From the NCBI RefSeq assembly GCF_000165425.1, contig NW_001799630.1, positions 3,734 to 67,733 of the forward strand: a stretch of DNA of 64,000 bases. Direction: 5' to 3'. Within the stretch, counting starts at the first letter, position 1; the number at the start of each line of letters is the position of its first letter. The notes beneath the pieces are model-generated. The model was given only the letters and a program-made list of their open reading frames with translations. It made no database searches and was not told the origin of the DNA. Made by a program: the position numbers and the translations under genes. Of the stretch, positions 32 through 21,585 are shown one piece after another. This DNA comes from Paramecium tetraurelia. Taxonomy: Eukaryota; Ciliophora; Oligohymenophorea; Peniculida; Parameciidae.

Positions 32-1146
32 TCAATCCTTCTTTTTTTCTTTTCTGCTCTTCTCTTATTTTGATGTTGTTTCTCGTGAATTTGGCTATAT
101 TTATTTTTGCGATTATATCAATTGCAATTTAATCCACCAAAGGAAGGATACCACACCAACAATAAGCCAAGGAAGCCATACATATATTGGAGTATCTTCA
201 TTTTATAGATTACCACAATCAGGTAAGAATTTAATCGATATTAAAGTTTCTATAGCAATAGTGAAATAGGTAAGGTATCTTAATTGATATGGTTGGTTTT
301 TATCTGTAATTGAATTATGAAGTTCTCTGAATGCTGAATGGCCTAACATAAACCAAATCAGAAGTCTATAGACAACCATCCAACATTTTGGAGGAACCCA
401 TAATTCATTCATCAAGAAGAAATTATTTAGAAAGTTGCCTATGATTACAATGATAACAATAAGAACAGCTTCAAATTTCTTTGGATTTGTAAAGGTGTCT
501 TTAGCAAACCAACTGTATTATTCAAATTTGAATTTCTTAATGATGATCATTCCAATAATAATAGCAACAGTGTTACTTAATAATACATCCAATAATACAT
601 GATCCCACCAGCATTCTCTAAAATGGGGGAGTTTGTGTTGCCAAGATAATTCAATAATTTCATCTAAGACAGACCAAAAGTTGAGAAACCAAAAGTCCCT
701 GACAAGAAATGTAGCCAATAGCCAATTGATTACGTGACTCCAATAATAGTGATCTAGATTGTCAACAATATTGATCCATTCGAATTCGCAATTATCATCA
801 TAAGTATGCATATCCTTTGTGACAGGCTTACCTAATCTATCATCTCCCAAACTCATAAGCTAAAGTTATTTGAGTGATGTACATATCTACCATCTTTCTC
901 ATTTTGAAATGATAAAAAGACCAAGATGGCTATAAATGTGGCAGATAACCAGAATTATATTCTAAAAATGGCTCCATATTTATCACCAAAAGGATCACTT
1001 GGTTTCAATGAACCAATCATTGCAATGAATAGCATGGCTGCCAGCACACCTCTTTTTGAGTTCGCTTCGAATCCTACATCATTGTTATAGGCTAAGTAGA
1101 GAAGAACAGTTGTAAATGTCCAAAACGCAAGTTTATGAAAACTCAT
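32..1146 (-). CDS. PTDSS: Phosphatidylserine synthase (base-exchange type)
   Basis: Makes phosphatidylserine by exchanging serine for the head group of an existing phospholipid in the ER membrane. The protein is about 363 residues in two exons, joined across a 23-nt intron at 860-882, and ends at TGA 32-34. Family features are visible: an early DPFGDKYGAIFR segment near residue 50, then ECWWDHVLLDVLLSN in mid-protein, followed by repeated hydrophobic segments including VWLPWLIVGVVSFLWW. The C-terminus is a short Lys-rich tail. TAA/TAG must be read as Gln throughout. It diverges from the next gene across only 24 bp. Family assignment is strong; which of the two mammalian isoforms it resembles is not resolved. 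Confidence 0.9.
860..882 (-). other. 23-nt intron in the phosphatidylserine synthase gene
   Basis: Reads GTACATC...TTTAG on the minus strand. Its removal joins the DGRY and LMSLGDD coding frames and avoids an in-frame TGA. It is a typical example of the tiny introns in this window. Confidence 0.85.
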
Positions 1147-2958: not shown

Positions 2959-5038
2959 TCAATCAGCTTTAGTCTCATATTTGGTTGCATTTGGATCAAA
3001 ATAATATTTAATGTGAGCATGTGGCGAAGTCCCATTTGCATTTTCAAGAAATATATGTAAATTGCCTTCAGTATCAAGAAGCACCTCACTTTCAACGATT
3101 CCACCTAAACATTTTACATACATCTAATACCTTTTTCTAAGGGTTCGCATTCTATGATTTCTTTCTTTTCCCAATCTACTTTCAACACTTTTTAACTTTC
3201 CTTCGCATACATAGTCAAACCTCCTATCAATAAAGCTAAATTCTTTTTAACTCTGACTGCCATAAACCTTCTCAATGGCAATGGTAGCTTCAAAGTACAT
3301 TTTTCCCATCTATTCTCGTTAATATAGTATCTTTCTATAGTATCTAAAGTGCCTTCTTCCTTGTTATAACCACCAAATAAAACTATTTCATTATCTTTAT
3401 TCTACAAGCAGCAGCTTGACTTTTTGGTTATTTTAATCCACTAGTTGAACCCATTTCTCTGAAATAAGATCGTAATATAAAACTGATGATAATTACACCT
3501 TATGTTGTTCGTCATATCCTCCAACGCAATAGATTTTATGATTATAATAGAGACAAGAACAGAAGAACCTATTCATAGGAATTTGATGTTTCATTAACTC
3601 CAATCTATCATTTTGATAGACTCGAAAGTTAGTTTCTTGAAATCCTCCAATTAGATAAAATGCTTTTTTGTCAGGAACAAAAAGAGTTGTAAATTATCTG
3701 TCTAATTCCACATCCAATTTTGCAATCTAACGCCATTTTTGTTTGGATGTTGAAAATTTACTGATAGTCTTACCTCCAAATTCAAACCATAAGCAGGAAT
3801 CATTCAATATTAAAGTGGAATCCCTATAAAATGCAGATTAAGATACGACAGGCTACTTAATAACCTGAACTTATTATGATTGTTATTATTAAGTAATCTG
3901 TTGTTATTTCTAAGAGGATGGCTATTCTCTTAATGGTTACTTTGACTTTTGAGATTGCTCAATTACCTATGATGATCCTGCATTTTTCATATGTTGAGCA
4001 ATCACATTTTTAAATTGAACTTCAGCCTCTTGTGATGTCCTGTAAGGAGGTCCTCGTTTTAACATAGTATTATAGTGTTAATTGTACAACAAAATGTATT
4101 CATTTATAGCCACATTCTCAGATATCTTTCCTGAATGATATTTCTCCTCGTGCTCTATGAATAATTGTTCAATTTCAACATATGATGGCCTTTAAGCCTC
4201 TTCAAAAATCAACATCAATTTTATTATCGACACATAAGCAGGACTATACTTTTACTCTAGCGAAGCTAAACTCTATAAAATCAATTGCTCCCCCTCATTT
4301 TATTAGGTATTATTGAATCCAGTTACTTCTTGCATGGCACTCATCTAATACATAACTAAGCCAGTTGAAAAAACATCTGATTTATAAATGTTGTGTTCTA
4401 CATATCTACTATTTCCATCAATTACATGAGCCTTCCATAAAATAGGTGATAAATATTGAGGTGTGCCTCTAATTGTCGCCATAGTGTAAGTATTTTTGGC
4501 TTCATTGTCTAAATCAAAGAAATAATCCTTGCTTTCACCAAAATCAATTAATTTCAATTCCCCATTCGTTATCATAAATAAGTTAGCTGGTTTTATATCT
4601 CTGTGGCAAATCCCTTTTTATTGCAAATATGAGCACGTTGATATTATGCTAAACAACATAGTTACTAACTCATTCTCTTTCCAGAACTAATTAGGTTTCT
4701 TTCTTTTTCTATACAGATTTTCCAAATTAGTGTTATGATCCATGTACCTATATAAATAAATCTCATAAGTACTCTGTAATTATTCCTAAACGAAACGTAT
4801 TGTACAGAGTTTCAGCAAAGTAGTATCCATAAAATCGAATCACGTTGCCACAATTTTAAACTTTGCTAAGTTGAACTGCTTCTTCTTTGTATTCATTTAA
4901 TTTCTCTAAATTAGTTGCTTCAATCTCTTTTAAAGCATATACTTTATTTGTTTGTATATGTTGCACTCTATATATCTTTGTATGCTTCTTGCCCGAACCT
5001 AACAATTCCAATTTTTTGAAATCCTGCTTCCTAAACAT
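2959..5038 (-). CDS. Protein kinase fused to C-terminal kelch repeats
   Basis: About 668 residues. The N-terminal half is a serine/threonine kinase: glycine loop LLGSGKKHT, ALKEIE lysine, catalytic loop HRDIKPANLF and DFGES. The activation loop ends in RGTPQYLSPIL, so the usual Glu of the APE motif is Ile. A Gln-rich linker follows, then several kelch repeats (LIGGFQ, CVGGYDEQ, VLFGGYNKEE, LIGGLTMY). Clear introns are 4748-4772 (25 nt) and 3105-3130 (26 nt). Near 3400-3441 the frame slips by one: a 19-nt (3402-3420) or 22-nt (3420-3441) intron, or one extra A in an A run, would explain it. Start MFRKQ at 5038 is the first ATG in frame. The substrate is unknown. Confidence 0.8.
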
Positions 5039-5436: not shown

Positions 5437-6949
5437 ATGAAATCCAATGGAGGAGGTGACCATAATAAAAATATTTAGACATCTGGAACTCTTAGGAGAA
5501 TAAAAAGAATGAGGTTGAGATCAAAGAATTAGTAGGGTTAAAATGATGTGGCAAGGTATTAGATATTAAGTATTGAATAGTAAAAAAATGGCTGGTAATA
5601 ATTCAACTTTATCATTACATATTATTAAAACTAAATCACTTTTTAAACACAAAAAACTAATTAAATAAAGCACTCAAAGTAGAGAGAGTCTATTTCAAGA
5701 CCCCCTCTAGAAAGATCAAAAAAATGTCAAATTAGCACAAGAGCCAAATGTTAAATAATAATCAACAAAAAATAAATAGACTATATCATAAAGAAAATTA
5801 AGAAGAAATGAAAAGCTTAAAGAATTGATAGATGCTTAAATAAAAGCATAAATTAATCAAAAGATCAAATTTCATGATACAAAATTTAAAGCCCTAACAG
5901 AAATTGGAATTCCAACAATAAATTTAAATTAGGATAAAATAATATAATTTATTGAGTAATTTCAAAACGAGATAAAATAGAATGATGAGAGCATAATATA
6001 GAAGTTAGTGGGTGCAATTGGAGAGGGATATGCTGAAAGAGGAGATGAGGTTATTTCAAATGTAGATGCAAAAGAAATGATGATTCAAAAATAGGTTGAG
6101 TTCTATTTAGAAAATTGTGGAATCAAACTTGAATGGACATTGGAGAGGTGGAGGAAATTGATAAGAAGAACGTTATTTGTGGTACCTTTTTGCCATATGC
6201 CTAACGTGAAGATAAAGGAGTATTTAAATGGAAGAGAAAGATACTAAATCATGTTCGAAACTTTAAATCTCTTTACTTTAATCAATAGATGGAGCAACAC
6301 TTAAATGTTTCATCAATTTAGTTAGAATTTCCCATTTTAAGTAAAAGATGACATCGAAATCAAGGAGTTGGTTAATGAAAATGAATTGCACAATATTCGA
6401 TAAATAAGAGAATATTTAAGTAGAATTATGACTGCATTGAATGACATATATTAATTGAAATTTCAAAAGGAATTTTAAGTTGATCTTTATTAGACAAATA
6501 ATCAATTATAAGATTTATAGGTTGAATATTATTTGAGAAAGATGAAAGTACTTTAACTAAAGCCAGTAAATTTACCATAGGCCATGAAAGAATAAATAGA
6601 ATAACTTTCATCAAAAGTGCAAATTTAAAAAGATCCGATTATTGATGAGCCATCAAAAAAATAAATGGATTAAGAAAAATAAATAAAACCATAAAATTAG
6701 GTGTAATAAAAGAAAAAGATACAAATCAATCTAATCAAATCGAAGACTTTACTAGAATATTTTAAACCTGTAAAGAATTAGAATAGTATAAATGCTGATG
6801 TAAATTCTCAGGGCTTGAGTTAAAATAAGGACAAGAATGGGAAATAGACACCCGAAAGTAAATCTTAATTCTCCTATTTTGAGATCTTGGATGAACTTTT
6901 TAGTAATAAATTTGGTAAAACAATATAAAAGGAAGGATAAAAAAAATGA
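5437..6949 (+). CDS. Unknown protein with one copy of an unnamed ~200-residue module
   Basis: 495 residues; one 25-nt intron at 5556-5580. The N-terminus is basic and disordered-looking. Residues ~143-365 hold a helical module that also occurs twice in the next gene: a LTEIGIPTINL start, a VEFYLENCGIKLEW segment and a HNIRQIREYLSRIM segment near its end. The C-terminal part is Lys/Gln-rich and contains SKTLLEYFKP near residue 426, which resembles a PCNA-interacting motif but lacks the leading Gln. No enzyme signature is visible. The tandem arrangement with the following gene suggests a local duplication of the module. Confidence 0.7.
5556..5580 (+). other. 25-nt intron
   Basis: GTATTAG...GAATAG. 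Removing it joins the N-terminal basic segment to the long downstream frame; without it the frame ends at an early TGA. Confidence 0.8.
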
Positions 6950-7351
6950 TATATAATTATAGTTTAAAAATATATGATTTTTATTATTGGAGAGATATAT
7001 CAGGGCAATTATTATTAATAAATAATGTACATTTAAGATGATGATGAATTTAAAGGAAATTGGATGAAGGTTTATGAATAAATTTTTATTATTAAATTAG
7101 GTTTACGTAAAATTAACAAATTATTTGATAATAATAGGTTAAAAAGATTAAATATAGAACTAAAAATTATTTTACACAAATTTGGTTTATAGATTCTTGT
7201 AATTTCAAGACTGAATCGATAGAAAATCTATGTGAGATACAAGCTAAGTATGAGATCTTTGTCAGAAGGAAGAACTGATATCAGGTTACTTGTAACAGTG
7301 ACTCTTATTGATGTGATGTTAGAATTATTAATATAATTTATAAACATAATA
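6950..7351. other. Intergenic spacer
   Basis: AT-rich gap between two same-strand module genes. I see no gene or repeat in it. Confidence 0.5.
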
Positions 7352-9667
7352 ATGTCTGAATAAGAGTATTTGTTCGATTCATATAATCAACATAATTGGA
7401 ATTCTTATGATTTTGATTTGGAATGCTAAGACTCTGAGAGATAACAAATAGATAGAATAAAAGAAAAGTGTAATATGAATTTATTAAAACGACAACTTGT
7501 TTGTTTGTTTGGTTTTCCTTCCATATAGATAGAGAGTGGATAAATAATCGCTTATCTTAATGGAATCATGGATTAAAATGAGAATGAATAGAAAAGAATG
7601 ATTAGAGTGTTGATAAGCTTCATTGGTGAAGTTACTAGCATTGAAAATCCTGAAACTAGATTAGAGACCATAAGGACAAGAGTTGAATAATTCCTGACCA
7701 TAAAAGGAATTAAAATAGAATGGAGTAATAAGGTATGGGAGTACGAAATAGAATCACTTTTTGAATCCAGATATTGCAATCCCTATTATAGTAAAATTCC
7801 GTATTCTTAGTTTGAATATGCTAACTTCTTTGCTTTATTAGAAAGTCCCATGCCCATGTTTCTGAGAAATCTGAAGCATCCATGTTGTTGTCAGGTATAT
7901 GATGCAAAATCTACAGAAGATTTTAAATAATTATGTAACATCACTGATTTGAAAAATGTGAGGAGGATAAGAAAATACATCCAATCAATAATAGATAAAT
8001 TAGAGGAATTTAGAATTTTGCTTATAGATATAGAAACAAAGAATTATAATTGTGGACCTGATATAATTAATAGTTTTAATCATCTATCTGGTGAGCTTGA
8101 TAAAATAATAAACATAGATTTGTAATTAATAGATAGAAGTAGCTTAAAGTAAGAGGAGAAGTTGAAATTTAATAATGATGTTGATAATTAAACTGAAAAG
8201 AATTCAATTGCTTTATTAGAAACTAAAACATCTGCTAACACTTTTACCACTATTAATCAAGGTAGCCTGGATTGTCGAACTAAGAAATAGAAGAAGAAAC
8301 AAAAGCAATAGGAAAAATATTATTTCTCATCAGCTTTCCTAAATTATATTGATTCAGAAACTAATCTTAGTTAAGAAAACAGTCGAAATTCTGAGCCCAA
8401 ACTTGAAGATCAACAAATTAAATTTACAATAGATACAGAAATTCATAATTAATTACATATTGCATGTACTTCAGTATAAGATATACTTAAGAAAATTGAC
8501 ATTTACGAAAAGCAACTCCAAAGTTTGTAATTACTTGGATTTCCATGTCCAAAATTAGATAAATCTCATTTAAAATATATTCTATCTAATTTTCGTGAAT
8601 GCTATACAAATAAATAAATTTTAATTGAATGGATTGTTTCAAACATTTGGGAATCATAGACGGTTAGAGAAGATGAAACTAAATGTATTGATGATGTGAG
8701 ATAACAAGCCTTAGAATATTTCTAATCCATTAAAGTAGATAAGGATGATTTCGAATAAATCTTAAATAACTGCTATGAAAAATAAGCCTCTTTGCCATTT
8801 AATAAGTACTTTGAAATAGGAACTTTTTCTCTTCAAAAGTTGTCTCAAATAGTAAATCGTAAATTTCCAGAATCTTTCGAACTTAGCAATTGTCTGGCAA
8901 GTAGAGTAGTGTTTAAATCTAAAATATTTTAACCTTTGGAGAAACCAAGTAAAATAAAAGAAATCAAAAACATCAGAACAATTAGGAACTATATTAAAGA
9001 TGTATATTAAAGTTTAGAGAAGTTGATTGAATTCAAAAATAAGATAAATAAAAATATCAATTGTAGACCACAACATCAATAATTAATTAGAGAATTCAAA
9101 ATATTGTATTCCCATCATCATTGCAAGATCGTGAATAAATAACTAAAATAAAAAGGCTGTTCCACTCTGCAGCAAGTTGACAAGGTATAGGAGGGCAAAA
9201 ATTGCATCATAATTGAAGACAAAGACTAGCTTGATGGGTATTTTAATTGCTAGGAGAAAAAGAGCTCCGATGTTATCGAAATAGAAGAGTATTCTATAGG
9301 ACAAAAAGCTGAGTTACCAAAGTTAGAGGAAGATGTAATTTAAGAGGACTTAAGTTGTGTAAAGAAGAAGAGTGAGATAAATTTAAAATTAGAAGCAGTG
9401 ATTGAGGTTGAATAACCAAAATTAGAATATGAAAAGGAATTAGAGTATGAAAAAGAATAGTATATTTTATGTAACGAAATCATTTCTCCTGTTTAAAGAA
9501 ATCTTTTTCAAGACAATCAATCGCCCAATATATTTCATTCTCCTCGTTTTGATTATTGCTCCCCTTTGGCAAAATAATTTTTTGGTTAATTAGAATTTGA
9601 TTAATACGAGATTGAATCCCCTGATAGATAGTGTTTATAATTTCAACCTCCTCAAAACTTCAATTGA
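7352..9667 (+). CDS. Unknown protein with two copies of the unnamed module
   Basis: Single exon of 771 residues. Two related helical modules lie at roughly residues 48-252 and 393-593. Both begin LxGFP, carry an EIESLF or DFEQIL-type helix mid-way, and end in an Arg-rich helix: KNVRRIRKYIQSIIDKL in the first and KNIRTIRNYIKDVYQSL in the second. The same layout occurs once in the gene just upstream. The first copy has a Cys-rich spot (HPCCCQ). The linker and C-terminal tail are acidic and Ser-rich with no domain I recognise. No signal peptide or membrane span is visible. Confidence 0.7.
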
Positions 9668-9748: not shown

Positions 9749-10772
9749 TCATATTTTAAAAATCTGAGAAAAGTTTCGTATGCTCTTTCGATATTCATTT
9801 ATTTAATTACAACTAGCCATGTTAACTTGATTAGCTAAATTCTAGTATTTTTCTTGAGTACTAACAAACCAGGACTTTTTGGCCTCATGGAATAGTCTCT
9901 GTTTTTCATTTTTCGCCTTTATACATTAATTATCCAAATCAACCAAATACTCTCTATCAATCTCTGCTTCGTAATTCTTTTTGAACATCTCATCCTTGCT
10001 CAGGTATTCATCTCTAGCAAAGAACTTCTGGCCCAAAATCTTATTAATTAAAATTATAAGTACTTCTGTTTCTAACACATTTCTATATGTGCTATCTTTT
10101 GTTAACTAGTGATATGGTGTTTCAGAGAAAACGTAGTTCAGGAATTGAACTATTGAACTTCCAAAGAAAATGTAGATAAAAATCAAATAGCATGAAATTT
10201 GTATCCAATTGGGTCCTCTTTAAATCTGTCTTCTTTAATTCTAAAATTCTTAATCAACAAATTCTTGTTGTCTTTGATTTTATTGATGATGACCACGATT
10301 CCTTCGAGGACCTGATGAGTAATAAAACATTCCAGGACTTGATTGAACAAATTAAAATCCTCCAAAACCATTTCCGAATCCAGCACCAAATCCATTCTCA
10401 AATAAATCATCAAACCCTCCATTTTATGAAAAGAATGTTCGGAATATTTATTCGGCTGGACTCTCTCCCCATTGTTGCCTGTAATGTTGGTAATGTTATT
10501 CAGGTTCTTCAGTCCCATATTGATCGTAAGTTCTTCTCTTATCTTGATTGGATAGACAATCGTAAGCCTAGGTAATGCTATCTATTTACTTGAGCAACTT
10601 TCTTAAAGGCCTCATTGGCACTAGGATTTTTATTTTTATCTGGGTGATAGAGCAAGGCCAATTTTCTATAAGCTTTTTTTAATTCCTCATCTGTAGCAGT
10701 CTTAGAAACACCTAAAATCTCGTAGAAGTCCTTTTTTTTAAGAAATTCCTTTATATCTGCTTCTGTCGACAT
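9749..10772 (-). CDS. DnaJ/Hsp40 membrane co-chaperone (DNAJB12/B14-like)
   Basis: 333 residues with one 22-nt intron at 10568-10589. Residues ~15-80 are a J domain with DFYEILGV, the HPD motif in [10 protein letters not shown], and the closing [11 protein letters not shown] Gly/Phe-rich stretch follows (residues ~108-135), then a Gln/Arg-rich linker and one hydrophobic span, [20 protein letters not shown], near residue 185. The layout of an N-terminal J domain, G/F region and a late single membrane span matches ER-anchored J-proteins that recruit Hsp70 on the cytosolic face. The remaining C-terminal part is helical and charged. It starts only 24 bp after the stop of the next gene upstream on this strand. 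Confidence 0.85.
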
Positions 10773-10796
10773 ATATTAAATATATTTATTAGTAAT

Positions 10797-13041
10797 TCAA
10801 TGTTATTGAAATGGAATTTTTGATTTTTTTGCGGAATCACTCCGTTTCAGTAGGAAGTATTTCTAAGTATAGAATGAAAATATTACATTAGATTGCCGAT
10901 TCAAACTAACAACCTAAGTAGAAATCTATTAAGCAATTTATTTTGAAGACTCATCTCCTGGGAGAGTGTTGATCTGAGTTCTATATCTCAAATAAGCAGT
11001 CTTAGCACTATTGTTATTCTGGCTTTTTAAATGGGTTTAACTTGCTTTACGAGAGTTCGACAAGGATCTACTGACAGGAATAGCAGTTTTGAGTTATTAT
11101 GAATTTGCGAGATTCAGCAATTTAGGTTCATCGTAAACCTTATTGCTAATATGATACTTCTATTTGAGAGTAGTAATAGGTGTGTGTTTCTATTTCAACT
11201 TTTCTTAAGTGAGTTTAGCTTGTTAACTTAGAATTTGATTCATCAATATGTCTACTCTTTATTTGATATCAAATTGTGGTTAGAGAATTTTATTTTTCTT
11301 TATAAATAGCTGTTATTGTTGTTTAGGTGAAATTTCAGGTTCCTCCTATTATGTTTCGACCTTCTTTTCAGCTTCATATTGAGTAACAGAATGCTTCTAT
11401 GGAAATAGAATATGTTTTTTCGCTGTTAGAGATTGTTGGAGTTTCGTGACGGTTGAATTGGGTTGATTGAGTTTTTTTAGCGGTTCTTTTGTTTATTTAT
11501 TTAAGATAGGGACTTTGACAATAATTACAACTTTATTCGAGAGTGTAGCTTTATTATTAAAGGCATGAGGTTTTAGCAATTTGGTATGGTACTCTACTTC
11601 TTCATCTTCAGGCTAATTTATTGATAAAACTAATTACGATTGATTGCTTATCCACTCCATACAATTTTTGATAAACCTAATAGATCTGAGAGAAGATTAA
11701 ACTTGAATGAGGAATAAATGTGTAAAACATTTCCAACGCTTTTCCTAACCAGATTTCAATGTTCATTTTATTTAGTTGATTATTCAGGAATCGTAATTCA
11801 GTTGAAATACTGTAGAAACCTAAGCCAGTGAGCATCATCTAAAATGTAGAATAGAATGAAGTACCAACTCTAAGATTACTTCTTCGGCTAAAACCATGTC
11901 GTGACTATTGATGGGAAACAATTCCTCTAAATCTACATATGTCAACTGCATTAATCCTAATATTTGCATTTACAACATAGGATGATTGTCTTCAATAATT
12001 GTGAATAGTTTATTTTATTAATTGTTGTTTTGAGTCTGAAAGATCTATTCTGTAGTAAATAAAGATTGACTTCTATTTTAATAATTGCGTACTAAAAGAT
12101 TATTTTAACTACCATTCTCATTCTACTTTTCATCATCATAAGGCATAACACTCCTGATTGAATTTAATATTTCCTTAAAAACTATTTCCACTATCTGTGG
12201 ATAACTCAATGCCTATGGTTATTACTATGGTTAGCAAACAGACTGTGATAGTGAATTTTTTTAATTTGGAGAATTGATCTCTGAATTGGCTCTTTATTTT
12301 TTATTAATATTGTTAAATAGAGTTATTTGTTAACATAATTTAATTGTTAATTAAATAATGTTCCTTAATACTTTTAAGGCATCTTTTGCTAATTCTAAGG
12401 CCTATTTATTTCTTATGTAAAAATTGGAATGAATACCTTTTGGTTTCTGAAAATAGCAAGGTGATTTAAAACAGTATTCTCAATCTAAGTAACTTATTTT
12501 ATATCATCCTAGCTATTTGGAGAACGTCAAAGGTGCCTTTTTTTAAGGTTTTTCCTTTAATTTTGAGAATCTGTTCACAATCTAACAGTAAATTTAAGGA
12601 TTCATCGTAGGCTGCATATCTCTTGAGTATAATAGCGTAATTGATTTTCGAGAATAGGACAGATGTGTATTAAACTTATATTCTATGTGATGAGAAGTAA
12701 TTACTAATTTAAAGTATAAAATTCTAATAATTTTGTCGCTCGGTTGTGGAACTCTAAAGCTTGGAAATCTGAGATGTCCTCTTGTATAGCAATTTTAGTG
12801 AAGTCATTGATAATGAAATCTGGATTGTCAGGCTTGATTAGGATGATTTCTGAGGAATCTTCAGTCTGTTGGATTAGATTGTTTTATATACTTGAATGAA
12901 GAAGTTGGAATCATTATTGATCTGTTCTCTCCTGAAAGTAATTCTCTTTTGCCTTACTTTAAAAATAGGAGATTTCTCTTGGATCAACACAGGCTGAGAT
13001 ACATTTTTGTTGTGAAATGTATGTGCTTCCAATTTAATCAT
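10797..13041 (-). CDS. TPR-like helical protein of unknown function
   Basis: 706 residues in six exons; introns at 12867-12892, 12683-12704, 12412-12436, 11839-11864 and 11613-11637, which together restore a length divisible by three. The central region has helix pairs spaced like tetratricopeptide repeats, for example YAAYDESLNLLLDCEQIL and NKQALELAKDALKVLRNII. The C-terminal third is basic, Lys/Gln/Ser-rich and probably disordered. The third intron ends in AAG rather than TAG. No catalytic signature is seen. It may be a scaffold, but the function is unknown. Confidence 0.65.
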
Positions 13042-13753: not shown

Positions 13754-15262
13754 TCATAATTGAGACGAATGTTTCTCCTCCTCATCCCCAAAAGGACTAT
13801 CATTCCCAGATTAATCATACCCTATCTGATCTAAATAAAGTATAATAAACATATATATATTACCATCCGAAGGCTTATCAAAGTCTATGTTTCTTCGATC
13901 CTCATCCAGATTGCTAGAACTGTTAAATCTCTGATATTGTCTGTCCTCTCCAAACTGTATTTTCACATAAGTGGAAGCCTTCTTTGTTTTCCTTGTGTCT
14001 ACCTCGATACTCTCCTCATCTTCATCATCTTGTCCTTCCCAAATAGTCTCTGGAATCAAACTTTGAATTGATTTGGCTTTAGAGAATTATTACTGTGCGG
14101 CAATCTTCTTTGGTTTCTACTGTTGTTATTGAGGCAACGGTATTTTGGCCTTGTATTGTAGGGTTTTTCCTGTGGCATTCAAAAAATCCAACAACAATTC
14201 ATTATTGCCAAATGAATTCACTAATCCTTTCAAAAAGGAGTCTAATTGTATTCTCCGATTATCAATATCCTATTAAGTTAAGTATTTTGTCATCTTTGGG
14301 AAGACGGGTAGATCGAGTTATGGGTATGTTAAAGTGAAATCCCTGTGAAAAGTTAGAAAATCACTAAAGGATCGAAATACTATTTTATGTTTCCCTTAAT
14401 ACTTGAAAGTAATTTCATAAATAATGTATTTTCGCTATGTACTCATGTCTTTGTTGTCCTAATAAGAATTGACTTCAACATCTGTAATGTGTTGTTGTTG
14501 CAATTAATCACCTGATTGACAAAATGTGAAATTGGATTCGTTGGCTATTAGTTATTACCTTATCTAGACCTCCTCTTCATTGCCAAGCATCTGTAGTTTG
14601 TATTGGTATTCTGATACTACTGTCTAGAGAAGCTTTTTGTCTTATGGTATGAAGAACACAAAGACTGATAGTAGCAAGAGCGCTATTCCTCTGAGAATGA
14701 ACATGAGCCAACAACTGATGTCTTCGTGTCTTATTACAAATTTATCTTTGTTATTTATCTGCCAAGCAAATAGGACAATAGCGAATCCACAAAAACAGAA
14801 AAATTACAACTAAATAGGATATTGCACAAAATACTATGAGGTTGAGTTGAGTAGCAAATGTTGTTTATCCATACTTGTTTGCATCCTCAAATATTTGCAA
14901 TCCTGCCAACAAATAATTTATTATCTAACAAAACTCTATAATTGTTATCAAAACGTAACTAATCTATTAGCAAAGTATACTCTGAATGGAATTAAACATT
15001 GATGATTATTTGCAATATTGACAAAAGTGTGAACATACTCAAGATTGCTACTTTTGTATAAATGGAACATAAATTCAGAATGAATAGTTTTCTTTTCTCC
15101 TTGAACTATTACCTGGCAGCATTGTAACCTACTCATAGATTCGTGACTCTTACCCTTATTTTACTTCTTCCACATAAGACTTGCCAAATTCTAAAGCAGA
15201 GGCAAAATTCCCAATCCTATTACAACTATATTTTCCCAAATATTATCAAAAACCTTTGCCAT
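13754..15262 (-). CDS. Multi-pass membrane protein with a C-terminal PX domain
   Basis: About 465 residues. The N-terminal half has several hydrophobic spans (ENIVVIGLGILPLLQNLASL, AILSMFTLLSILQIIINV, LIVFCAISYLVVIFLFLW, IALLLLSVFVFFI), laid out like the extra N-terminal domain of ABCC transporters. The second half contains a phosphoinositide-binding PX domain: KYIIYEITFKYQG, then FRSFSDFLTFHRDF, then LPVFPKMTKYL. Introns: 15129-15153, 14959-14980, 14746-14776 (31 nt, AAAG acceptor, tentative) and 13831-13863 (33 nt). The last keeps frame and has no stop. No ABC cassette follows, so it is not a complete transporter. It may tether membranes to PI3P-rich endosomes, which is inference. Confidence 0.7.
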
Positions 15263-19866: not shown

Positions 19867-20921
19867 CTGTTTATAATTAATTCATAATATATATATTGCA
19901 ATTATTATCTAATGAATTAACAAAAAACTTTCTCATTTACATCTATTTCAGATTTCAAGACTCTCGTGACTAACCAAAATTCACCACTCAAAATTTCTGT
20001 CCTTTGAATGATATGCAACATTCATAAGAATTCTACAGTCTATATGTAAGGCATTATCCTTTATTTGCAGAATCTATTAATAATTAGGATTTGCTCTTGC
20101 TATAAAATTCTAAAATTAAGTTATTCTCACTGATCTTAATTATAATTCCTGAATAAAAATTGACAATTTTATTTTTTTCTAAATATTAACCTAAATTGAG
20201 AAGTAATAGTGGAAATTTCTAACTCATGATAGTCTGTTCTCTATCACCCATTTATCCACTCCAACTATTACATTTGAAATGAAGTGTTATATCTTAACTC
20301 AAAATCTTTAACTCTAATAATTCTAATATAGTCTCATTCCATAAAAGGATCTTACTAATAAATAACAATAAATACCAGGATTATAAATACAGATTTTATA
20401 ATAATCATTCTAATTCAATAAAATACATATAACTATTTATGAAGATAATCTAAATATTAAACAACAAAAGGTAGTAGTTCTCTTTGGATTGCGAAGTTAT
20501 CAAAACCAAATGATTTGGTTAGTAGAAAAGCTTTTCATAAATTTCCAGTTGATATCAAAGGGAATTTACAATTTCGATTTTTGGAGGATACCAAATAATA
20601 TTATCTACTTTACTAATACTCATATGATTAAGGGAAAGAGGAACTGAATGGTTTGGCGAAGGTTGTATGCCCTAGTTTATGATCATTTAATTTCATATAT
20701 GAAGTATATATAGTAAAGGATGAAATTATATAACATATTATATTATAAATTACTTCCAAATCTTTTTATATCATAAAATCAAAGAAATTAATTTAAACTT
20801 ATTTTGAATCTAGATTTAAATGCAGGATGAGGTTAAGTTAGAAATTCACATACAATGAGAAGGACAATTTTGAATTGATTAAAATTATCAAAAATTAAAT
20901 AATCTAATTTTAAATTAAAAA
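19867..20921. other. Spacer with several open frames but no confident gene
   Basis: TGA-free frames of 80-100 codons occur on both strands between 19,912 and 20,690, and each looks superficially protein-like. None has a supported start, intron or domain, and opposite-strand frames overlap. GC rises slightly near 20,455-20,690, so a gene relic is possible. Confidence 0.35.
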
Positions 20922-20993
20922 ATACCACCCCGAAGACTTGAACTCGGAACTTCAACTTAAAAGGTTGACGCTTTACCTCTAAGCTAGATGATA
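20922..20993 (-). tRNA. tRNA-Lys(UUU): tRNA-Lys, anticodon UUU
   Basis: A 72-nt cloverleaf on the minus strand. The acceptor stem TATCATC pairs with GGTGGTA, using two G-U pairs. The internal A box (TAGCTTAGAGG) and B box (GTTCAAGTC) are intact. The anticodon stem TCAAC/GTTGA encloses loop CTTTTAA, giving anticodon TTT. A run of six T directly follows the 3' end, as expected for an RNA polymerase III terminator. The T stem needs one bulged T to pair fully, and the variable loop is short, so the gene is either divergent or slightly degraded. It stands alone in AT-rich DNA. Confidence 0.75.
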
Positions 20994-21585
20994 TATCTAT
21001 AAAATTGGTAATAGCATTGCTTATCTGATTTTTAAATAACATAATTATATTTAAGACCTTTATTAAAGTTAAATGGATATATATGGCATGCATTCTTTTA
21101 TTTTACTTCAGTTTGAATCAAAAGAAGGAATAATCACTTTATAATTGTTAGTTTTTAAATTTTATATATCGAATTTCATTTTATTTTCAGTCAATATATA
21201 ATCGATGGTTGAAACATTAACTTGATATAGTAGAATATATCACAGAGGAATAAAAATTCTTAATAGTTTACTTGGTCAAACAGTTATAAATTAAGATCAA
21301 ATCATTTAAAAATACAAAAGAATTTATATAAAAAATCAAAAAAATGATAACAATAGAAGAAAAAAGTATTTATTTATACACTTGAATTTTTCGAAGAATA
21401 TCTTTTATCTTATTTGCTAATATATAAATCTATAACACTAATTCAAAATTTTATTAATTTTATAAAACAGGTTTCAATAAACTCAGATTAAAAGATGTAT
21501 AAAATAACTAATAGAAACTTATAATTTGAATTTTCATACTTTTATGATAAAATTGTTGATTTACGCAATATTTAATAATTATAAA
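20994..21585. other. AT-rich intergenic DNA
   Basis: Upstream flank of the tRNA (minus strand) and downstream flank of the SAPS gene. No gene, repeat or motif stands out. Confidence 0.5.

Follow-up and report, generated by a model that had tools for sequence, protein, structure and literature searches.

What is the repeated module encoded by two neighboring genes of Paramecium tetraurelia, and what kind of proteins carry it? The question bears on an open problem in ciliates, in which one cell contains two genomes that are packaged differently. The window (the whole 64,000-nucleotide stretch analyzed here, C211:3734-67733 of a 69.07-Mb, 231-contig genome) includes two genes that are open with translation table 6 (TAA and TAG read as Gln), and not with table 11. 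An initial annotation had reported three copies of an unnamed module in these genes and read the tandem as a local expansion. Here, we describe the module and its occurrence in the genome, and then assess what its association with chromatin assembly proteins may mean for the two genes, whose features and neighbors are listed in Table 1.

Table 1. Features of genes 1 and 2 and other features of the window; positions are counted from the first base of the window.
Feature	Position	Strand	Description
Phosphatidylserine synthase	32-856	-	Domain match, 5.4e-50
Kinase/Kelch open frame	3388-4830	-	Protein kinase domain (2.7e-22), then Kelch motif (9.1e-11); may be a single gene or a merger of two frames
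Gene 1	5437-6949	+	495 aa, one module; exons 5437-5555 and 5581-6949; duplicate on C2
Gene 1 intron	5556-5580	+	25 nt, GTA...TAG; removal joins start exon to long frame; predicted from sequence
Gene 1 module	5849-6508	+	Residues 130-349; profile match 8.8e-68 (own row in profile)
PCNA-box-like motif SKTLLEYF	6740-6763	+	Gene 1 residues 427-434; identical in C2 duplicate; putative binding site
Gene 2	7352-9667	+	Single open frame, 771 aa, two modules
Module 2a	7448-8086	+	Gene 2 residues 33-245; profile match (own row in profile)
Basic stretch KKQKKKQKQQ	8282-8311	+	Gene 2 residues 311-320, between the modules; read from sequence
Module 2b	8474-9100	+	Gene 2 residues 375-583; profile match (own row in profile)
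Probable DnaJ-family gene	9749-10840	-	Directly downstream of gene 2; DUF1977 (3.9e-10), weak DnaJ (0.0094, below cut-off)
PX-domain protein	13754-14890	-	Domain match, 2.6e-9
tRNA-Lys (TTT)	20921-20994	-	Only Rfam match in the window at gathering score; only ARAGORN match

The module and its predicted fold

Profile matching places one module of ~210 residues in gene 1 and two in gene 2 (2a and 2b), close to residues 143-365 (gene 1), 48-252 and 393-593 (gene 2) as annotated initially, and the three helix strings quoted at that time are all found in the proteins. The mutual similarity of the copies is significant in both shuffle tests and BLASTP, and the copies are homologous. By BLASTP, the whole gene 1 protein matches module 2a at 4e-14 and module 2b at 1e-3, and 2a matches 2b at 2e-11; these E values are optimistic, since composition correction was off and a single subject was used. 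In the shuffle tests, which covered ten pairs from five of the 12 modules found in this genome, none of 500 shuffles reached the observed score in any pair. Shuffle z scores are 19.5 for gene 1 and 2a, 13.6 for 2a and 2b, and 5.6 for gene 1 and 2b, and the gene 1 module reaches 16.8 with the module of C199, a relative described below. The gene 1-2b pair, weakest in the window, is bridged by the form of 2b found on C121, an intermediate that scores z 14.1 with gene 1. Across the 12 aligned modules, a Gly, a Pro, a Glu, and both Arg of an R-x-x-R helix are invariant.

The module was originally said to correspond to no named domain, and indeed Pfam and PDB searches of the genes and modules name none convincingly; gene 2 has no PDB match under 0.59. 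The candidates that did appear were taken as chance. All are weak or implausible; they include the Pfam families Spectrin_Dys-1 (at best 0.015 in a module and 0.044 in gene 2), Transcrip_act (0.0055), Anti-Pycsar (0.0085), and Spo16_C (0.0093), as well as a TetR regulator (3on4, 0.0051) and terminal nucleotidyltransferase 5C (0.006). The Pfam matches occur in only one or two of ten modules, and none of the candidates has a second line of support.

AlphaFold2 predicts module 2a (12 rows) with a pLDDT of 89 and a pTM of 0.82. The model is mostly helical, with a short strand and a hairpin element (residues 104-109 and 144-152 form strands); the two invariant Arg lie on its long C-terminal helix. 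The model of the C199 module (10 rows; pLDDT 77, pTM 0.69) consists of helices only and includes two stretches of low confidence. As the two predictions differ, we give weight to the module 2a model over the C199 one. A fold-library comparison of the models yielded no significant known fold, and Foldseek against PDB gave none under E 1.

Relatives with a CAF1A-like region

Gene 1, gene 2, C199, PF12253, C215, C121, and C216 served as queries in genome searches, which together yielded nine proteins with 12 modules: gene 1 and its duplicate on C2; gene 2 and its duplicates on C2 and C121; C199 and C101; and C215 and C216. Nine is a lower bound, as the six-frame search scores the best candidates only. 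C199, C101, C215, and C216 point to CAF-1, which helps package newly copied DNA. After splicing, C199 and C101 encode proteins of 781 and 837 aa, respectively, with the module near residues 102-315 and an acidic region near 550-650. The C215 protein has 620 aa, and its C216 duplicate was read as two unspliced frames. C215 (L031) and C216 (L035) are 49-51% identical in the C-terminus and module; C199 and C101 are closer, at 76%.

C199 and C101 connect directly to the window. A search with gene 2 matches their modules at E 1.4e-15 and 1.5e-13, respectively, and a search with C199 leads back to gene 2 (1.4e-13), its C2 duplicate (7.1e-15), and the gene 1 duplicate on C2 (1.4e-8). Searches with C215 or with the C216 module do not recover the window genes, so the link of this pair to the window rests on profiles. 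When built without C215 and C216, the module profile ranks them 8th and 9th of 556 open frames (window plus six fetched loci) at 3.5e-6 and 1.1e-5, behind the seven members from which the profile was built; the next frame is at 0.15. In hhalign, the module profile matches C215/C216 at 4.5e-5 with a score of 37.9, compared with 12.6 +/- 2.3 (maximum 18.2) in 60 column shuffles; a two-row C199/C101 alignment matches them weakly (E 0.016, 73 columns).

The evidence for CAF-1 lies in the C-terminal regions. PF12253 (CAF1A) is the best Pfam match in all four of these regions once trimmed: C101 (25.0 bits, E 2.1e-5), C215 (23.7 bits, 5.4e-5), C199 (22.3 bits, 1.5e-4), and C216 (18.0 bits, 0.0034). 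The curated cut-off is 25 bits, which one of the four touches, and only in trimmed form. PF12253 appeared in none of ten shuffled C215 and C199 regions. In whole C199, it is the sole Pfam match listed (E 0.011, 16.3 bits; 3.7e-4 for the region alone), and whole C215 gives 9.6e-4 and 19.7 bits, below the cut-off. Genome-wide, PF12253 has a single match, to C215 (E 0.009, 22.3 bits, again below the cut-off), and matches none of 14 control genomes. C199, C101, and C216 are absent from this genome-wide result; in C199 and C101, an intron splits the region. The best PDB match of C199 is human CHAF1A (7y5k, E 1.5e-4), covering a stretch of the form I-R-x-R-x-P..DY-x-x-DS...F-x-V...LS-x-DE. With whole C215 as the query, CHAF1A is not among the PDB matches, and a four-row profile of the CAF1A-like region gives CHAF1A as its best PDB match at an E of only 0.0042. 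C199 and C101 also have a short Lys/Glu-rich stretch, and their KNLKHFF fits a loose PCNA-box pattern, not the stricter one.

C215 was reached via PF12253 and C199/C101 via the module; thus, the module and the CAF1A-like region co-occur in two lineages that were found by different routes. Altogether, these sequence comparisons make the assignment of C199/C101 and C215/C216 to p150 well supported, though not formal.

The same features were sought in the window proteins. A profile of the CAF1A region (A7) scores 0.7 bits for gene 1 and -8.3 for gene 2, compared with 115-149 for its four source relatives, and a Pfam scan of the two proteins gives no CAF1A and no winged-helix match. The window genes have no convincing KER helix, only short K/E/R-rich stretches by composition. 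PCNA-box patterns are expected at 0.16-0.76 per shuffled protein; given this chance rate, we count only SKTLLEYF of gene 1 (0.20 such patterns expected in gene 1 shuffles), as it is conserved in the duplicate. It lies in the less conserved tail and is without the Gln of the canonical PCNA box. Gene 2 has no PCNA box common to its C2 duplicate, in which KDQLDGYF is not kept.

Some further features of gene 2 were noted. Near its C-terminus, the C121 duplicate (L005) has a PCNA-box pattern that includes the leading Gln, QPIISDYF; the C211 and C2 forms have no such pattern there, and 0.76 are expected by shuffling. The basic stretch between the modules is nearly conserved in the C2 duplicate and is altered yet basic in the C121 duplicate. 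It is a possible nuclear localization or DNA-contact segment. The C-terminal tail (window about 9485-9660) has several Ser-Pro sites that are shared with the C2 duplicate despite the fast evolution of the tail, and these are possible phosphorylation sites.

Duplication history and selection

The copies are homologous, but the "local expansion" of the initial annotation is too narrow: four CAF-1 large-subunit-like proteins encoded at other places in the genome carry the module in their N-terminal part, and the tandem pair is not recent, as the genes are side by side on C2 too and gene 2 is also on C121. Collinearity between C2 and the window extends to both sides of the pair. The long flanks share 86.8% and 82.8% DNA identity with the window, the gene 1-gene 2 stretch 70.8%, and a 181-base piece adjoining gene 2 72.4%; the gene 2 proteins are 61-64% identical. 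C121 is a more diverged duplicate region that shares gene 2 and its downstream neighbor (69.5%), with no gene 1 within the 9.9 kb examined. Likewise, a genome search with gene 1 returned the C211 and C2 genes only, plus weak matches to module 2a. Since gene 2 is present on C2 and C121 and gene 1 on C2 only, the two-module gene 2 is older than both duplications, and since the tandem is kept on C2, the pair is older than the more recent one. We take both duplicate regions to derive from whole-genome duplications.

A tree of the modules groups them by type: gene 1 modules (support 100/100), 2a (96/99), 2b (93/95), C199/C101 (99/99), and C215/C216 (100/100, on a long branch). The tree is midpoint-rooted, and the branching order among types is settled for C215/C216 only.

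Comparison with the C2 duplicates gives a Ka/Ks of 0.22 in gene 1 (counted from the internal Met of MAGNNST onward) and 0.23 in gene 2. By part, gene 2 gives 0.09 for module 2a, 0.35 for module 2b, 0.48 for the C-terminal tail, and 0.04 for the linker, in which Ks is saturated. These figures are rough because Ks is about 0.85-1.35 outside the linker. Judged by these ratios, both genes are fast evolving yet constrained, and both are maintained.

Potential role and comparison with known systems

Because the same module fronts probable CAF-1 large subunits, genes 1 and 2 look like stripped-down CAF-1 relatives. From sequence, they are very probably p150-related paralogues without the histone-binding part. 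Our overall reading, which we hold with moderate confidence, is that in this species the CAF-1 large-subunit (p150/Cac1) relatives have the module as their folded N-terminal domain and that genes 1 and 2 encode p150-derived adaptors. How they would act is more tentative: an adaptor mechanism in chromatin assembly is conceivable, in which the module would serve for docking and direct CAF-1 to a type of nucleus, a chromatin state, or a partner. The products of genes 1 and 2 would then bind the same partner as the p150-like proteins without carrying H3-H4, and could regulate replication-coupled chromatin assembly, compete with it, or bridge it, perhaps in only one of the two nuclear types or at one developmental stage. 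For CAF-1 of fission yeast, H3-H4 binding is assigned to the acidic region, and assembly of the complex to the large subunit (PMC10942606); a module-only relative could therefore compete with or bridge CAF-1 while depositing no histones.

The module could instead be a general chromatin or nuclear adaptor domain that the p150 proteins and genes 1 and 2 acquired independently; the two genes would then act apart from CAF-1, for example in programmed DNA elimination or remodeling. We consider this rather unlikely, given that the module proteins not of the gene 1 or gene 2 type have a CAF1A-like region in four of four cases in this genome and that the PCNA-box-like motif of gene 1 fits replication coupling. 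Still, the module is the only similarity found between the window and the p150-like proteins, and Paramecium has other divergent, Pfam-negative chromatin proteins that act in genome rearrangement, such as ICOPa/b bound to ISWI1 (PMC11789628, in part). A further reading is a diverged DDT/WHIM-type or winged-helix domain, as in ISWI partner proteins, and residues 93-160 of the predicted model (helix-strand-helix-hairpin) are winged-helix-like by element order. This identity is improbable: Pfam lists DDT, WHIM, or WSD in none of ten modules, although it also missed the WSD motif of the ICOPs (as described in part of PMC11789628); DDT (PF02791) matches one other place in the genome only, C2:743037; and the Foldseek result offers no counterpart.

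It is highly improbable that genes 1 and 2 are functionless, decaying p150 duplicates. Their frames are open in both duplicates, Ka/Ks is low overall and lowest among the modules compared in 2a, and the two genes are still in tandem on C2, even though both lack the acidic region and their stretch diverges faster than the long flanks (70.8% identity to C2, with 72.4% for the adjoining 181-base piece, against 86.8% and 82.8%).

Returning to p150-derived adaptors as the preferred reading, the module would add an unlisted domain to a well-studied chaperone; its structure is predicted with confidence and matches no known fold significantly. A broader scenario, which is speculative and on balance doubtful, is that in this group of ciliates the CAF-1 large subunit gained a new folded N-terminal targeting domain, which was later split off into histone-binding-free tandem paralogues, the first bearing a PCNA-box-like motif and the second a doubled domain, that steer assembly by nuclear type or in macronuclear development.

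The CAF-1 large subunit (human CHAF1A/p150, yeast Cac1, fission yeast Pcf1, Tetrahymena TTHERM_00309890) has the CAF1A-like region in common with C199/C101 and C215/C216. In contrast to it, the module proteins have near the N-terminus a folded module with no convincing counterpart in Pfam or PDB, and genes 1 and 2 carry this module but no acidic region. To our knowledge, no such N-terminal fold has been described in known p150 proteins. Pcf1 is laid out as KER, PIP, 3BD, ED, 2BD, and WHD, with about 50 disordered N-terminal residues (passages of PMC10942606), and the p150 PCNA box is described as non-canonical (PMC9570017, in part). The Tetrahymena large subunit was named by p150 similarity (PMC8216455, in part); the examined passages of PMC10080907 and of other literature say nothing on which domains it contains. 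Among the papers listed in the literature searches, none describes the module in the passages covered, and it may still be in print.

Two Paramecium systems are comparable by name or by form. PtCAF-1 of P. tetraurelia is a CAF-1-named chromatin protein, but of the small WD40 subunit type (RBBP4/CAF-1C) and not the large one (PMC4231744, in part). The ISWI1 partners ICOPa and ICOPb (779 and 783 aa) are like gene 2 in length, in being Pfam-negative, and in being duplicated in Paramecium; however, they are 92% identical to each other (passages of PMC11789628), whereas gene 2 shares 61-64% identity with its C2 duplicate, so that gene 2 is unlikely to be an ICOP, in a comparison made by description only. 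For Tetrahymena, a published hypothesis is that CAF-1 complexes differ in composition between the two nuclei (PMC10080907), and large-subunit relatives with and without the histone-binding part provide concrete genes for testing nucleus-specific CAF-1.
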